64,000 nt of DNA from Maribacter aquimaris. Lineage in GTDB: Bacteria; Bacteroidota; Bacteroidia; Flavobacteriales; Flavobacteriaceae. The position numbers were made by a program, and so were the translations under genes. Below are positions 4,323 to 10,798 of this stretch, piece by piece. The stretch spans positions 1 through 64,000 of the forward strand of contig NZ_JABTCF010000013.1 of the NCBI RefSeq assembly GCF_014596745.1. Reading direction: 5' to 3'. The notes beneath the pieces were generated by a model. The model ran no database searches, was not told the DNA's origin, and worked only from the letters and a program-made list of their open reading frames with translations. Numbering within the stretch: position 1 is the stretch's first letter; the number at the start of each line of letters is the position of its first letter.

Positions 4323-6455
4323 TTATTGGTGTAAGGCCAATTGAATTCTTTTTCGGGGCACATCGACCTCGAGCACTTTAACAATAATCTGTTGGTGCAA
4401 GCTTACATGGGCGTTGACATCCTTTACAAAGGTATCGGATAAATTGGAAATATGGATCAGTCCACTTTCCTTGATCCCAATATCCACAAAACAACCGAAG
4501 TTGGTAATGTTGTTCACGATGCCCGGTAGTAGTTGTCCGGTTTCCAGGTCAGTGATCGACCTAATGTTTTGGTCAAACGTGAATACCTTGGCTTTTTCAC
4601 GGGTGTCCAATCCGGGTTTTTCCAATTCCTTAACGATGTCCTTTAAGGTGAAAAGCCCAATATTTTCAGTACAATACGCATTCAGGTCAATGCTTTGTAA
4701 TAGTGGTTTGTTTCCGATGAGGTCCGATACCTTTTTGCCGAGGTCCTTCGCCATTTTTTCAACGATACCATAGCTTTCGGGGTGTACGGCGGAATCATCC
4801 AAAGGGTTTTTGGCCTGTTTGATACGCATAAAAGCCGCTCCCTGTTCAAAGGCCTTGCCCCCCAAACGGGGAACTTTTTTAATGGCGGTCCTGCTTTCAT
4901 AGGCACCATGTTCATTGCGATAGGCAACGATGTTCTCTGCCAGTTTGGGGCCAATACCCGAAACGTAGCTCAAAAGGGGTACACTTGCCGTATTGATGTT
5001 GACCCCGACCGAATTCACACAGCTCTCGACTACGGTGTCCAACGAGGTTTTTAGTTTGTTCTGGTCCACATCGTGTTGGTATTGCCCTACACCAATCGAT
5101 TTTGGGTCGATCTTGACCAATTCGGCCAAGGGATCGGCCAATCTTCGCCCGATGGAAATCGCTCCCCGAACGGTGACGTCATAATTGGGGAATTCATCAC
5201 GGGCGATTTTCGAGGCCGAATAGATCGAGGCTCCCGCTTCACTCACCACAAAGACCTCAATGGGATTTCTGAATTGGATGCGTTTTATCAGCTGTTCCGT
5301 TTCCCGGGATGCCGTACCGTTACCTATGGCAATGGCCTCAATTTTATAGGCTTCGGCCAGGGAACTTATTTTTTTAATCGCCCCTTTACTGTCGTTTTTG
5401 GGGGCATGGGGATAAATGGTCTCATTGTGCTCCAAATCGCCCTGAGCGCTCAGGCAAACCAGTTTACAGCCGGTTCTAAAGCCCGGGTCAAGGGCCAAAA
5501 TTCGTTTTTCACCCAAGGGAGAGCCCAACAACAACTGTTTTAGGTTGTTTGAAAAGACCTGAATGGCCGATTCATCGGCTTTTTCTTTTGCCTTTTTTAG
5601 GGTTTCGTTGGATAAGGAAGGGAACAATAAACGTTTATAGGCATCCTCAATGGCCAGTTTTATCTGTGTGCTACACGCATTGTTGCTTTTAAGGATACGC
5701 TCTTCGATTTTTTGAAGCGCCCTTTCGTTATCGATTTCGATTTTAACACGGATAAAGCCTTCATTTTCCGCCCTGAGAATGGCCAGAAGACGATGTGACG
5801 GACAGCGGCCCAAAGATTCGCTCCAATCAAAATAATCCCGGAACTTCTGGGCTTTTTCCTCCTCTTTTTTGGTGGAGATGACCTTGGTGGTGATTTGGGC
5901 GAATTTCTCCAACTGGTACCGTATCTGATTCCGGATGTCGGCACGTTCATTGATCCATTCCGCGATAATATGGCGGGCACCTTCTAGGGCCTTATCTTCG
6001 TTTTCTACGGTGTCACTCAGGTATTTCGAGGCTTCGAATTCAATCTCGTCCCCGAAGTTTCGGGACTGTGCCATGATGATCTTGGCCAAAGGCTCCAATC
6101 CGTTTTTACGGGCCGTCTCGGCCTTGGTCTTTTTCGACTTTTTAAAGGGCAGGTAAATGTCCTCAAGCGTTGTCAAATCGCCGGAATTCCCTATTTTTTG
6201 GCGGAGCTCGGCAGTCAGTACCTCCTGTTCCTCCAAAGCTTTGATAATGGTGGCCTTGCGTTTTTCGAGTGCCTCGAATTGGGCCTTGAACGTGACTATA
6301 GCCCCAATCTGGACTTCATCCAGATTTCCGGTACGTTCTTTTCGATAGCGCGAGATAAAAGGTACCGTGCAATCTTGCTCTAGGAGTTCAACGGTATTCT
6401 TGACTCCTTTTTCGGGGAGTTGGGTATGCTTTAGGATGTAGGGGATGAGTTGCAT
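4323..6455 (-). CDS. tex: Tex family RNA-binding transcription accessory protein
   Basis: A 710-residue Tex/YhgF protein. It has the N-terminal helical region (TQLPEKGVKNTVELLEQ), a YqgF/RNase H-like core (ILALDPGFRTGCK), a helix-hairpin-helix segment (LSYVSGIGPKLAENIVAYR) and a C-terminal S1 RNA-binding domain (GIVNNITNFGCFVDIGIKESG). Tex binds nucleic acid and affects transcription. The frame is open further upstream to 6551, but that part translates the palindrome and leader repeats. I place the start at the ATG at 6455, where family homology begins. The first 17 codons and the leader of this gene are copied several times in the upstream array, so its promoter region has been rebuilt by repeats. 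Confidence 0.95.
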   Translation of the reverse strand: MQLIPYILKHTQLPEKGVKNTVELLEQDCTVPFISRYRKERTGNLDEVQIGAIVTFKAQFEALEKRKATIIKALEEQEVLTAELRQKIGNSGDLTTLEDIYLPFKKSKKTKAETARKNGLEPLAKIIMAQSRNFGDEIEFEASKYLSDTVENEDKALEGARHIIAEWINERADIRNQIRYQLEKFAQITTKVISTKKEEEKAQKFRDYFDWSESLGRCPSHRLLAILRAENEGFIRVKIEIDNERALQKIEERILKSNNACSTQIKLAIEDAYKRLLFPSLSNETLKKAKEKADESAIQVFSNNLKQLLLGSPLGEKRILALDPGFRTGCKLVCLSAQGDLEHNETIYPHAPKNDSKGAIKKISSLAEAYKIEAIAIGNGTASRETEQLIKRIQFRNPIEVFVVSEAGASIYSASKIARDEFPNYDVTVRGAISIGRRLADPLAELVKIDPKSIGVGQYQHDVDQNKLKTSLDTVVESCVNSVGVNINTASVPLLSYVSGIGPKLAENIVAYRNEHGAYESRTAIKKVPRLGGKAFEQGAAFMRIKQAKNPLDDSAVHPESYGIVEKMAKDLGKKVSDLIGNKPLLQSIDLNAYCTENIGLFTLKDIVKELEKPGLDTREKAKVFTFDQNIRSITDLETGQLLPGIVNNITNFGCFVDIGIKESGLIHISNLSDTFVKDVNAHVSLHQQIIVKVLEVDVPRKRIQLALHQ

Positions 6456-6514
6456 GGGGTACTGTATTTTGGGTTGTTTTATGTGTTCGTTTAAGGTCTG
6501 ATTTATTAAGGTTT

Positions 6515-6538
6515 GTCCGGTCGAGCGCAGTCGAGACC
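6515..6538 (-). repeat. Array palindrome nearest tex
   Basis: One 24-bp copy of the imperfect palindrome, oriented opposite to the copies that precede GIY-YIG starts. It lies 60 bp upstream of the tex start codon, between the T' leader copy and the real tex leader, so it must be transcribed into or close to the tex mRNA 5' end. Confidence 0.8.
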
Positions 6539-6557
6539 TTAATCCGTGCATGGGGTA

Positions 6558-6956
6558 CTATTTATGAGTTGTTTTATGTGTTCGTTTAAAGTCTGATGTA
6601 TAAGGTTTGTCCGGTCGAGCGCTGTCGAGACCTTCATCGGTATCAGTCGGTTTAAAATCGGAATGGGTGGCGTTTCGGCATTGGGCCAAAATCTGTAAAA
6701 GGTCGTATTCGCCATTAGCCAAGGCAAGCTTCTTTGTACCACTCCACTTTTTTATTTTCTTTTCAAAAGAAATGGCTTGCACCACATCATTGAATTCTTG
6801 ATGGAAAATCAACTCGACAGGTCTTCTCCTATAGGTAAAGCAAGTTTTATTAAGGCCTTTTTGGTGTTCATCAAACCTTCGTGCGATATCATTGGTGATT
6901 CCGGTATATGTCAATCCGTCCGAACATAATAGTATATAAACATAGTAAAAATTCAT
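6558..6956 (-). CDS. GIY-YIG nuclease family protein (intact copy)
   Basis: A 132-residue stand-alone GIY-YIG protein of the UPF0213/YhbQ type. The motif region reads YVYILLCSDGLTYTGIT, followed by the conserved Arg (NDIARRFDEHQKG) and, downstream, the Glu-containing SFEKKIKKW segment that completes the active site. It is the only copy in the array that keeps the second half of the domain. The start is placed at the ATG at 6956; the frame is open further up through the palindrome. Palindromes flank it in opposite orientation (6979-7002 upstream; 6609-6632, which its last codons run through). Five truncated copies of its first 34 codons lie upstream. A role in moving or maintaining the palindromes is inferred from the layout only. 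Confidence 0.85.
   Translation of the reverse strand: MNFYYVYILLCSDGLTYTGITNDIARRFDEHQKGLNKTCFTYRRRPVELIFHQEFNDVVQAISFEKKIKKWSGTKKLALANGEYDLLQILAQCRNATHSDFKPTDTDEGLDSARPDKPYTSDFKRTHKTTHK
6609..6632 (-). repeat. Array palindrome inside the GIY-YIG 3' end
   Basis: A variant copy with a central GCGCTG instead of GCGCAG. It forms the last codons of the GIY-YIG gene and is in opposite orientation to the copy upstream of that gene. Confidence 0.75.
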
Positions 6957-6978
6957 TAAGGTTTTCTGCTTTAAACTA

Positions 6979-7002
6979 GGTCTCGACTGCGCTCGACCGG
7001 AC
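6979..7002 (+). repeat. Array palindrome upstream of the GIY-YIG gene
   Basis: An intact 24-bp copy (core TCGACTGCGCTCGA on the plus strand) that ends 22 bp before the GIY-YIG start codon. Together with the inverted copy at 6609-6632 it brackets the intact nuclease gene. Confidence 0.8.
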
Positions 7003-7171
7003 ATTGGGTTTTTAATTCAATCATTTCCAGTACCGCCCCCACTTGGAAAAGTCCAACCGTATTCCGTACTCCTTTTTGGTGTTCGTTGAATCTTCTTGCG
7101 ATATCATTGGTGATTCCGGTATATGTCAATCCGTCCGAACACATTAATATATAAACATAGTAAAATTTCAT
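7003..7171 (-). pseudogene. Truncated GIY-YIG copy G5
   Basis: Starts at the ATG at 7171 and keeps codons 1-34 (through NEHQKG). It then switches at AAAAAGG to tail X, whose frame stays open through the next palindrome (VRNTVGLFQVGAVLEM, then CPVERSRDLV). The GIY and YIG-like residues and the Arg are kept, but the catalytic Glu half is gone, so it cannot be an active nuclease. Confidence 0.8.
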
Positions 7172-7217
7172 TGAAGTTTACAGCTTTAAACTAGGTCTCG
7201 ACTGCGCTCGACCGGAC

Positions 7218-7386
7218 ATTGGGTTTTTAATTCAATCATTTCCAGTACCGGCCCCGCTTGGAAAAGTCCAACCGTATTCCGTACTCCTTTTTGGTGTTCA
7301 TCGAATCTTCTTGCGATATCATTGGTGATTCCGGTATATGTCAATTCATCCGAACATAATAGTATATAAACATAGTAAAAATTCAT
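7218..7386 (-). pseudogene. Truncated GIY-YIG copy G4
   Basis: ATG at 7386. It has the same structure as G5, with the variant SDELTYTGIT, and is joined to tail X (GVRNTVGLFQAGPVLEM). It is bracketed by palindromes at 7194 and 7409 in the same orientation. Confidence 0.8.
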
Positions 7387-7432
7387 TAAGGTTTTCTGCT
7401 TTAAACTAGGTCTCGACTGCGCTCGACCGGAC

Positions 7433-7609
7433 ATTGGGTTTTAAAATCAATCATTTCCAGTACCGGCCCCGCTTGGAAAAGTCCAACCGTATTCCGTACT
7501 CCTTTTTCGGGGAGTTGGGTATGCTTTAGGATGTAGGGGATGAGTTGCATGGGGTACTGTATTTTGGGTTGTTTTAGGTTTTCGGCTAATGTCTTGTTTA
7601 TTAAGGATT
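7433..7609 (-). pseudogene. Truncated tex copy T2 with leader
   Basis: A copy of the tex leader and the first 17 tex codons (ATG at 7550; MQLIPYILKHTQLPEKG), then tail X in frame. Palindromes lie on both sides, at 7409 and 7610. It is separated from its T' leader copy (7634-7704) by the palindrome at 7610-7633, exactly as in the real tex upstream region. Confidence 0.8.
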
Positions 7610-7633
7610 GTCCGGTCGAGCGCAGTCGAGACC

Positions 7634-7704
7634 TTAATCCGTGCATGGGGTACTATTTTTGAGTTGTTTTATGTATTCGTTTAAGGTCGGGTTTATTAAG
7701 GTTT
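7634..7704 (-). repeat. tex leader copy T' (second)
   Basis: A leader-only copy that ends in the tex start ATGCA followed by CGG. It lies between collapsed site 7705-7712 and the palindrome at 7610. It matches the segment at 6539-6608 in front of the real tex. Confidence 0.7.
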
Positions 7705-7712
7705 GTCCGGAC
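7705..7712. repeat. Collapsed palindrome junction
   Basis: GTCCGGAC is what remains if two head-to-head palindromes recombine at CCGG and lose everything between. The same junction occurs at 8201-8208 with the same flanks, tail X on one side and T' on the other. Confidence 0.65.
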
Positions 7713-7881
7713 ATTGGGTTTTTAATTCAATCATTTCCAGTACCGGCCCCGCTTGGAAAAGTCCAACCGTATTCCGTACTCCTTTTTGGTGTTCATCGAA
7801 CCTTCTTGCGATATCATTGGTGATTCCGGTATATGTCAATCCGTCCGAACATAGTAGTATATAAACATAGTAAAATTTCAT
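7713..7881 (-). pseudogene. Truncated GIY-YIG copy G3
   Basis: ATG at 7881. It keeps 34 codons through DEHQKG and is joined to tail X, ending at the collapsed junction GTCCGGAC. The palindrome upstream is at 7904-7927. Confidence 0.8.
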
Positions 7882-7927
7882 TGAAGTTTACAGCTTTAAA
7901 CTAGGTCTCGACTGCGCTCGACCGGAC

Positions 7928-8105
7928 ATTGGGTTTTTAATTCAATCATTTCCAGTACCGGCCCCACTTGGAAAAGTCCAACCGTATTCCGTACTCCTTT
8001 TTCGGGGAGCTGGGTATGTTTTATGATGTAGGGGATGCTTTGCATGGGCTACTGTATTTTTGAGTTGTTTTAGGTGTTCGTTTAAGGTCTGATTTATTAA
8101 GGATT
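7928..8105 (-). pseudogene. Truncated tex copy T1 with leader (frameshifted)
   Basis: The tex leader and about 17 codons (ATG at 8045) joined to tail X. It has diverged more than T2, and the frame open through the leader is shifted relative to tex. Palindromes lie on both sides, at 7904 and 8106. Confidence 0.75.
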
Positions 8106-8129
8106 GTCCGGTCGAGCGCAGTCGAGACC

Positions 8130-8200
8130 TTAATCCGTGCATGGGGTACTATTTTTGAGTTGTTTTATGTATTCGTTTAAGGTCGGGTTTATTAAGGTTT
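8130..8200 (-). repeat. tex leader copy T' (first)
   Basis: A leader-only copy ending in ATGCACGG, between collapsed junction 8201-8208 and the palindrome at 8106-8129. It is nearly identical to 7634-7704. Confidence 0.7.
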
Positions 8201-8208
8201 GTCCGGAC

Positions 8209-8377
8209 ATTGGGTTTTAAAATCAATCATTCCCAGTACCGCCCCCACTTGGAAAAGTCCAACCGTATTCCGTACTCCTTTTTGGTATTCATCGAACCTT
8301 CTTGCGATATCATTGGTGATACCGGTATATGTCAATCCGTCCGAACACATTAGTATATAAACATAGTAAAATTTCAT
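8209..8377 (-). pseudogene. Truncated GIY-YIG copy G2
   Basis: ATG at 8377. It keeps 34 codons (DEYQKG variant) joined to tail X and ends at the collapsed junction. The palindrome upstream is at 8400-8423. Confidence 0.8.
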
Positions 8378-8423
8378 TGAAGTTTACAGCTTTAAACTAG
8401 GTCTCGACTGCGCTCGACCGGAC

Positions 8424-8592
8424 ATTGGGTTTTAAAATCAATCATTTCCAGTACCGCCCCCACTTGGAAAAGTCCAACCGTATTCCGTACACCTTTTTGG
8501 TGTTCGTTGAATCTTCTTGCGATATCATTGGTGATTCCGGTATATGTCAATCCGTCCGAACATAGTAGTATATAAACATAGTAAAAATTCAT
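8424..8592 (-). pseudogene. Truncated GIY-YIG copy G1
   Basis: ATG at 8592. It keeps 34 codons (NEHQKG) and then tail X. Its upstream palindrome (8615-8638) is the outer boundary of the array; unique sequence begins within about 20 bp of it, 80 bp before the metG stop. Confidence 0.8.
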
Positions 8593-8716
8593 TAAGGTTC
8601 TCCGCTTTAAACTAGGTCTCGACTGCGCTCGACCGGACATTATAGGGTGCGTATTCAATCGAAGACCCTTCGCCTATCCCAAAAACACAACCAATAATCG
8701 TACCCTGCTGAAGGGT

Positions 8717-10798
8717 TTAATTTATTGTTAATCCATTCCCGACATTATCCTCGTCAGGATTTACAAAGACCAATTTACCATCAGCATTCTCGGTCATAAG
8801 TATCATCCCTTCACTTTCAACACCGCGTAATGCCCTTGGGGCTAGGTTAATCAGAACAGTCACTTTTTTACCTACGATTTCCTCAGGCGTAAAACTTTCC
8901 GCAATACCCGAAACGATGGTTCGCGTATCTAGGCCGGTATCTACCTTAAGTACCAATAATTTCTTGGCCTTGGCCATTTTTTCGGCTTCGACTATAGTGC
9001 CTACGCGCATGTCGAGTTTTGAGAAATCATCGAAAGTAATCGTGTCCTTTTGTGGCATAAGTGCTTTGTTTTCGTTTTCGTTCGCTTTTTTGGTGGCTTC
9101 CAACTTATCCAATTGGGCCTGAATTTCGCTGTCCTCCACTTTTCTAAAGAGCAGTTCGGCCTTATTGATTTTATGTTGGGGTGCGAGTAGGGTTTCCTGG
9201 GTTGCGACATTCGCCCATAAGGCCTCGTCTGCGCTTGACCCGAGCGCAAGTATTTGTTTTAATTTTCCGGAAGTAAAGGGCAAAAAGGGTTCGCTCAATA
9301 CGGCCAATCCTGTTGCAATCTGTAGGGCGACGAACATAATGGTCTTTACCCGTTCCCCATCTTGTTTGATGACTTTCCAAGGCTCTTCATCGGCCAGGTA
9401 TTTGTTGCCCAAGCGCGCTAGGTTCATCAGTTCCTGACCGGCTTCCCTAAAACGGTAGCGTTCAATGGAACTCGTAATGATCCCAGGGTATTTTCGTAAC
9501 TGTTCCAAGGTTTCCTTGTCCACTTGGGAAAACTCGGAAGGACTAGGAACGACGCCTTCGTAATATTTATTCGTCAAGACCACGACCCGGTTTATAAAGT
9601 TCCCCAGTATGGCAACCAGTTCGTTATTGTTACGGGCCTGAAAATCCTTCCAGGTAAAGTCATTGTCCTTGGTTTCGGGTGCGTTGGCCGTTAGGGTGTA
9701 CCGCAATGCATCCTGCATATCTGGAAAATCCACTAAATACTCATGCAACCATACCGCCCAGTTTTTTGAGGTGGAAAGTTTGTTGCCTTCCAAATTCAGG
9801 AACTCGTTGGCCGGTACATTGTCCGGAAGAATATATTCGCCGTGGGCCTTTAAGATACTAGGGAAGATAATGCAGTGGAAAACAATGTTATCCTTACCTA
9901 TAAAATGTAGTAATTTGGTGTCCTTATCCTTCCAATAGGGTTCCCAATCCTTGCCCTCGCGTGCAGCCCATTCCTTGGTCGATGAAATATAGCCGATAGG
10001 GGCATCGAACCAAACATACAACACTTTGCCCTCGCCACCTTCCACCGGTACGGGAATACCCCAATCGAGATCGCGGGTAACCGCCCTGGGTTTTAATCCG
10101 TCATCGATCCAACTTTTGCATTGGCCATAGACGTTGGGTTTCCAATCTTTCTTATGGCCTTCGAGAATCCATTTCTTAAGGAAATCCTCATAGCGATCCA
10201 AGGGTAAAAACCAATGTTTGGTTTCTTTGGTGGTTGGCACCGTACCTGTAATGGTCGATTTCGGATTAATAAGGTCCGTCGCATTCAGGGTAGAGCCACA
10301 ATTCTCACATTGGTCGCCATAGGCTTCCTCATGGCCACATTTTGGGCATGTGCCGACTACAAAACGATCGGCCAAGAATTGTTTGGCTTCCTCATCGTAC
10401 AATTGTGCCGTGGTTTCCTCAATAAAATCGCCTTGCTCGTATAGCTTTACAAAAAAGTCGGAAGCCGTTTTATGGTGGATTTCACGTGAAGTCCTGGAGT
10501 AATTGTCAAAAGTAATACCGAACTCCTCAAACGATTTACGTATGATACCGTCATACTTATCAATGACCTCCTTGGGGGTAATACCTTCCTTTTTGGCTTT
10601 CATTGAAATGGCCACCCCGTGTTCATCACTTCCACAAACAAAGGCTACGTCCTTACCTTGTAGTCGCTGGTATCTGGCATAGATATCGGCAGGTACGTAT
10701 ACACCCGCCAAGTGCCCAATATGTATGGGACCATTGGTATAGGGTAATGCTGCTGTAATGGTATATCTGGCTGGGGATTTTGCGTTATCTGTCATCAA
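8717..10798 (-). CDS. metG: Methionyl-tRNA synthetase
   Basis: A 693-residue class I synthetase that charges tRNA-Met. The HIGH region is [14 protein letters not shown] (about 18-31). The zinc knuckle is [18 protein letters not shown]. The KMSKS loop is the variant [10 protein letters not shown]. The C-terminal 110 residues form an EMAPII-like tRNA-binding domain ([27 protein letters not shown]). The length is that of the long, dimeric MetG type. It starts at the ATG at 10798. The gene is downstream of the DUF1800/DUF1501 pair but is separated from it by a terminator, so it has its own transcript. The GIY-YIG array begins 80 bp after its stop. Confidence 0.97.

Follow-up and report, generated by a model that had tools for sequence, protein, structure and literature searches.

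The window analyzed here, comprising positions 1–64,000 of contig NZ_JABTCF010000013.1 of Maribacter aquimaris, carries an intact gene for a stand-alone GIY-YIG nuclease that is bracketed in opposite orientation by two palindromes (6608–6633 and 6978–7003), together forming a basic unit of 396 bp. On balance, this unit is probably a minimal mobile element, in which the nuclease would recognize and nick its own class of hairpin and repair would spread the units. The unit is organized like a REPtron, in which a RAYT/TnpA-REP transposase gene is flanked by GTAG-tagged repetitive extragenic palindromes (REPs), which also form REPIN pairs. This likeness was pointed out in an earlier note on the same DNA, and the layout recurs well beyond the window: inverted pairs flank 36 of 96 related GIY-YIG matches in Flavobacteriaceae and 41 of the best 80 matches in named genomes of many phyla, as compared with 12 of 1003 other open reading frames (ORFs). 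The nuclease itself may thus be what causes the repeats to spread.

The nuclease domain (6645–6956, minus strand) matches PF01541 with 65 bits (E 6.6e-18), stands alone, and is the best GIY-YIG match in the M. aquimaris genome. The open frame (6558–7004) passes through both palindromes, and the methionine at 6956 is a likelier start of the nuclease than the start of this frame. The nearest sequences with solved structures are the UPF0213 proteins 1zg2 (E 1.3e-9) and 1ywl (E 2.7e-8), and a search of NCBIfam with the window protein returned no family up to E 0.01. Comparison with the gene of a second locus (L240) gave a nonsynonymous divergence (dN) of 0.065 and a synonymous divergence (dS) of 1.71; from this one pair, in which dS is saturated, the protein appears to be under constraint. 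As in the window, the nuclease frame enters the downstream palindrome at loci L068, L074, L095 and L096, producing tails such as GLDSARPD. Near-tandem pairs of GIY-YIG genes are also found, at L099 and L127 (two genes each, the copies being identical or nearly so) and, in the M. aquimaris genome, at C12:239735 with C12:240113.

The recurrence of the layout was assessed in 120 Flavobacteriaceae genomes, 66 of which contain a related GIY-YIG match at E 1e-8. A flanking pair was defined as an inverted pair scoring at least 15, and loci with less than 200 bp of flank were dropped; the 96 matches are high-scoring segment pairs, to which a few genes contribute two. The proportion of flanked matches compares with 0.096% of 9406 sliding blocks, and by score the pair is present at 19 of 30 matches of at least 100 bits, 7 of 36 at 60–100 bits, 8 of 25 at 45–60 bits and 2 of 5 at 30–45 bits. 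In the named genomes, 1.02% of 8613 blocks have such a pair; the 41 of 80 should not be read as a general frequency, because only the best 80 matches were taken and five of the eight seed proteins themselves lie between palindromes. At the level of genes, 38 of 76 and 35 of 95 GIY-YIG genes have a pair, as compared with 9 of 507 and 3 of 496 other ORFs, and among the 12 flanked ORFs of this control four also encode GIY-YIG proteins and four encode PF05635 proteins (23S rRNA intervening-sequence proteins). In the plasmid collection, where 33 records contain a match, the pair is present at 10 of the 12 loci examined, including those from Aeromonas, Sinorhizobium, Azospirillum, Shinella, Novosphingobium and Sphingobium. 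Tags point outward in 46 of 84 pairs and inward in 6, while 32 are unscored since the tag was not found by the pattern. By comparison, four other GIY-YIG genes examined in the M. aquimaris genome lack a flanking pair of this score.

Some side observations concern these surveys. The PF05635 genes are conspicuous among the flanked controls (L197:4604-4984, L134:3323-3670, L143:547-918, L131:9204-9578 and L168:1758-2123); their flanking repeats are of low complexity, for example TTAGAGGGTAG, and they may be a further case of a small gene with repeats at its ends. Two records listed as plasmids, L246 (gonococcus, 2.17 Mb) and L245 (Aeromonas caviae, 4.94 Mb), are chromosome-like in size, and the best-scoring flanking pair of L246 has its tags inward.

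The intact unit is embedded in an array (6458–8660; Table 1) of ten palindromes, the intact gene, five truncated copies of it and, in three places, the 5' end of tex. The earlier note had described ten imperfect palindromes of 24 bp; the count holds, but conservation extends over 26 bp (AGGTCTCGACTGCGCTCGACCGGACA), with all ten copies lying within 6514–8639. Their 20-bp core (GGTCTCGACTGCGCTCGACC) occurs nine times exactly and once with one mismatch at 6519–8634, as compared with a mean of 0.01 core matches in the shuffled window; an eleventh match in the window, with three mismatches, lies inside metG at 9221. The remaining inventory of the note, namely one intact and five truncated GIY-YIG genes, palindromes in opposite orientation around the intact one, and copies of the tex 5' end, is borne out. 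The truncated copies further prove to be chimeras, in which about 34 GIY-YIG codons are followed by tex-like sequence with the shared string AAAAAGG at the junction, and the tex 5' end region constitutes a repeat family (D3), whose first member lies at 6385–6608. A search of 6300–8800 against Rfam revealed no intron and no other family up to E 1. The period of the array is regular, with units of 215 and 495–496 bp, and this regularity, like the short string at the chimeric junctions, fits tandem duplication. Repeats that lie near a GIY-YIG gene by chance could have produced the array itself through ordinary recombination and slippage, with no functional link between gene and palindromes. As an explanation of the whole, this is improbable, being disfavored by the gene-level control above, by the clade-specific repeat classes in many phyla and by the dispersed pairs of constant spacing described below.

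Table 1. Coordinates of the element and the surrounding array in the window.
Feature	Position	Strand	Remark
Intact element: GIY-YIG gene between two inverted palindromes with outward tags	6608–7003	-	396 bp
GIY-YIG nuclease, likely coding core, 104-aa query stretch	6645–6956	-	PF01541
Palindrome copy beside tex start	6514–6539	+	repeat search
Left palindrome of intact element, one core mismatch	6608–6633	+	repeat search
Right palindrome of intact element	6978–7003	-	repeat search
Palindrome copy	7193–7218	-	repeat search
Palindrome copy	7408–7433	-	repeat search
Palindrome copy	7609–7634	+	repeat search
Palindrome copy	7903–7928	-	repeat search
Palindrome copy	8105–8130	+	repeat search
Palindrome copy	8399–8424	-	repeat search
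Palindrome copy	8614–8639	-	repeat search
Truncated GIY-YIG copy, N-terminal, chimeric with tex-like sequence	7043–7171	-	
Truncated GIY-YIG copy, N-terminal, chimeric with tex-like sequence	7243–7386	-	
Truncated GIY-YIG copy, N-terminal, chimeric with tex-like sequence	7741–7881	-	
Truncated GIY-YIG copy, N-terminal, chimeric with tex-like sequence	8252–8377	-	
Truncated GIY-YIG copy, N-terminal, chimeric with tex-like sequence	8464–8592	-	
tex 5' end copy	7480–7703	-	family D3, 90%
tex 5' end copy	7976–8199	-	family D3, 70%

The window repeat consists of a TGTC tag, a 4-bp stem and a 12-nt loop. Covariation was evaluated in 53 different repeats that fit (T/C)GTC-5-GAGCGNAGYCGA-5, in which the tag and the loop are fixed by the search pattern. 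Four stem positions pair in 91–92% of these repeats, as compared with shuffled means of 39–70% (maximum 79%), and pairing is lower when the positions are slid against each other. Compensating letters are present at the third stem pair, which occurs as GC, CG, AT and TA. By comparison, the fifth and outermost position pairs in 36% and fails as part of the stem. Positions 9 and 22 vary in concert, and for this reason an alternative fold comprising an inner TCGA stem plus a bulge was not adopted.

Copies of the palindrome are dispersed over the M. aquimaris genome (4.86 Mb, 27 contigs), in which 84 matches are found at up to three mismatches and none with the reversed control pattern. Five clusters hold 69 of the 84: C21 at 330–333k (30), C12 at 263–265k (13), C1 at 920–921k (10), the window array (10) and C5 at 119–120k (6). 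Outside the large clusters, a head-to-head pair measuring 39–42 bp from start to start is present in seven of the nine stretches examined; these pairs are gene-free and have their tags outward, some of the tags being decayed, and the C5 array at 119k is made of head-to-head pairs at 48 bp. As the arrangement is the same with and without a gene inside, the gene-bearing unit seems to be autonomous and the gene-free pairs its non-autonomous kin. In the C21 array (C21:330540-333513, L050), most of the 30 matches share one orientation, on the minus strand, a second type of tagged palindrome faces them in each unit, and no GIY-YIG Pfam match is found there.

The class of the flanking repeat follows the clade of the nuclease. 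Classes were assigned by regular expressions on the flanks either side of the gene, and the tree excludes proteins containing two or more stops and, in the Flavobacteriaceae set, matches shorter than 180 nt. On the resulting tree of 182 nuclease domains, the 129 labeled loci (53 unlabeled loci being excluded) require 16 class changes, as compared with a shuffled mean of 81 (minimum 73); in the subset of 35 loci outside Bacteroidota or unassigned, there are 6 changes as compared with 16.2 (minimum 13). Class C alone comprises five loci in five phyla. Consistent with this pairing, whole-genome counts in 33 genomes, with gene-linked copies included, place class C copies in 5 of 5 genomes that encode a class-C nuclease and 3 of 28 others, class D copies in 13 of 15 and 3 of 18, and class E copies in 9 of 9 and 12 of 24, respectively. 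The co-variation of nuclease and palindrome that the earlier note had envisaged is thus found, with same-class copies in many, though not all, genomes. The association of the palindrome with genomes bearing this GIY-YIG family, also raised there, is seen in Flavobacteriaceae, where 16 of 25 genomes with a nuclease match of at least 100 bits contain the class-2 pattern as compared with 20 of 95 others (p 1.1e-4); for four or more copies the figures are 9 of 25 and 4 of 95 (p 8e-5). These counts were compiled by hand from the pattern, nuclease and Y1_Tnp searches and cover class 2 only, as the letters of the pattern shut out the class of the window itself. Neither the class-2 nor the class C, D and E genome searches yielded a match to the reversed control pattern. 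In a Desulforhopalus genome with a class-D element (G148), at least 10 head-to-head pairs measure exactly 45 bp from start to start, and the gene-bearing pair measures 336 bp.

Sites with and without the element were compared among close relatives. A tex match is found in 10 of 12 genomes of the genus, that of M. aquimaris included, and the gap between tex and metG is only about 9 bp in three congeners. Two congeners carry the element there, one with a frameshifted gene, and in a third it lies partly in an assembly gap; two more retain a palindrome and a decayed remnant (in L239, as judged by eye only), and one has a palindrome-like stretch together with other sequence. In Azospirillum lipoferum 4B the element separates sufB from sufC, which lie side by side in A. 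ramasamyi, A. oryzae and B510, and among 129 matching plasmid records the 4B site is the sole one to cover at least 80% of the query. Seven Sphingobium records carry the element between fnrL and a response regulator. At L260 and L261, as compared with L255, its place is taken by a single symmetrical palindrome with CGTC at both ends, which equals the outer halves of both flanking repeats; three further relatives lack this palindrome, one of them carrying a different one. The single palindrome may be the footprint of a deletion (excision) across short direct repeats, or else the site before insertion.

A small GIY-YIG protein linked to a repeat need not be mobile. The Ssn GIY-YIG nucleases, described in 2025, reportedly cut single strands in the dispersed Neisseria repeat NTS and have thousands of homologs; they resemble the present system in that a small stand-alone GIY-YIG protein is linked to a genomic repeat of many copies, which limits the novelty of the nuclease–repeat link. 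The window protein is 33% identical over 75 aa to a gonococcal GIY-YIG protein that is not confirmed as Ssn. The window nuclease could accordingly have a host role as a site-specific enzyme, for example against incoming single-stranded DNA as is said of Ssn, with the repeats as its targets, the flanking pair marking or regulating the gene, and the whole package immobile. The biochemistry reported for Ssn would fit such a role, as would the constraint on the protein and the position of the gonococcal GIY-YIG gene among CGTCATTCCCGC repeats. We nevertheless regard a host role as unlikely, in that the filled and empty sites are patchy among close relatives, and gene-free pairs of the same geometry as well as truncated copies are present, all as in a mobile element.

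Several results weigh against a mobile element driven by its own nuclease. The flanking pair is not found at the threshold at 60 of the 96 Flavobacteriaceae matches, at 39 of the best 80 named-genome matches or at two Rhizobium loci of the plasmid collection, and no target-site duplication was seen at the tex–metG, Azospirillum and Sphingobium sites, where the flanks have diverged. GIY-YIG enzymes hydrolyze DNA, and strand joining by them is not known. DNA folding of three 30-mers gave z values of 0.51, 0.58 and -0.44 against shuffles, two being worse and one slightly better; as single repeats barely beat shuffles, the hairpin assignment rests on the covariation. The agreement of repeat class with nuclease clade is partly co-inheritance, since gene and flanks are linked and linkage alone would produce it. 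A recount requiring more than two copies per genome, which removes the contribution of the flanking pair itself, left class C in 1 of 5 genomes with the matching nuclease as compared with 0 of 28 others, class D in 10 of 15 as compared with 2 of 18, and class E in 8 of 9 as compared with 9 of 24. Class C is nearly confined to the neighborhood of the gene or to few copies, and class E is common also in genomes where no class-E nuclease was looked for; by this recount the clearest sign of dispersal is that of class D. It slightly lowered our confidence both in the mobile element and in a general role of such nucleases in spreading (C/T)GTC repeats.

In addition, the class-2 repeats show a weak link to Y1_Tnp genes, which are present in 50 of the 120 Flavobacteriaceae genomes: at two or more copies, class 2 occurs in 14 of 50 Y1_Tnp genomes as compared with 8 of 70 (p 0.03), and at four or more in 9 of 50 as compared with 4 of 70 (p 0.04). 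A tyrosine transposase (RAYT or IS200-like) might then move the repeats in trans, with the GIY-YIG gene as a passenger. At one or more copies, however, the link is not significant (18 of 50 as compared with 18 of 70, p 0.23), and the M. aquimaris genome, with its 84 repeats, contains a single match to PF01797 (Y1_Tnp), which is below the cutoff and on another contig. Of 30 Y1_Tnp loci, five of odd length were dropped, and pairs are present at 6 of the 25 usable ones, none of them, by eye, of the (C/T)GTC kind. In Di Nocera 2013 (PMC3733652), moreover, no RAYT genes with flanking CGTC repeats were found. We give this explanation little credence.

If the 396-bp unit is a mobile element, as we favor, its nuclease would act on single-stranded or cruciform DNA, where it would recognize hairpins of its own class by their tag and loop and nick them there. 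Homing-like repair of the breaks from other copies would then spread gene-free hairpin pairs and, less often, the whole unit, and the same repair may amplify and scramble copies locally, which would produce the tandem GIY-YIG/tex array. GIY-YIG cutting drives mobile elements in homing endonucleases (I-TevI, Seg) and Penelope-like elements, and the motor proposed here is alike; unlike these, the window element contains neither an intron nor a reverse transcriptase, and it has terminal hairpins and dispersed gene-free copies. With insertion sequences and miniature inverted-repeat transposable elements it shares terminal inverted repeats and gene-free derivatives. A search of the literature, limited to titles and not reaching the Ssn paper, found none joining GIY-YIG genes with REP-like palindromes.

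The resemblance to REPtrons extends to a short gene between inverted tagged hairpins and to dispersed gene-free hairpins, often in head-to-head pairs. The differences lie in the enzyme, here a hydrolytic GIY-YIG nuclease (PF01541) and in REPtrons a Y1 HUH tyrosine transposase, and in the tag, which is TGTC or CGTC here (TGTC in the window repeat) and GTAG in REPtrons. Most tagged REPs are either of the GTAG kind, tied to RAYTs, or of the CGTC kind, for which Di Nocera 2013 (PMC3733652) gives no dedicated transposase; CGTC REPs are described there with a CGTC tag, a stem of 8–9 bp, a loop of 4–5 nt and a CCA-like tail. The earlier note, which knew of no described system of this kind, was in this partly wrong, given the description of CGTC REPs and the 2025 report on the Ssn nucleases; no enzyme dedicated to CGTC REPs is reported in the 2013 article. 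In the accessible portion of a further text (PMC12306157), neither "transposase" nor "RAYT" occurs. Several nuclease-adjacent classes resemble CGTC REPs in their CGTC tag, their stem of the 8–9-bp type (for example CGTCATTCCCGCGCAGGCGGGAATCCAG) and their head-to-head dimers, and the repeats at L232, L245, L251 and L255 seem much closer to them than the window repeat, which is not assigned to CGTC REPs owing to its TGTC tag, shorter stem and longer loop. A broader proposition, advanced tentatively as a nearly even prospect, is that stand-alone GIY-YIG nucleases are dedicated mobilizers of (C/T)GTC REPs across bacteria, forming an HUH-independent counterpart of the REPtron with clade-paired hairpin classes and REPIN-like pairs as non-autonomous derivatives.

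REP repeats are common in bacteria; a partner enzyme is known for the GTAG kind, and the CGTC kind is reported without one (PMC3733652). That enzyme and hairpin are paired by clade in many phyla makes the question of the missing CGTC partner directly testable, and the likely recognition sites of many nucleases could be read from their own flanks.

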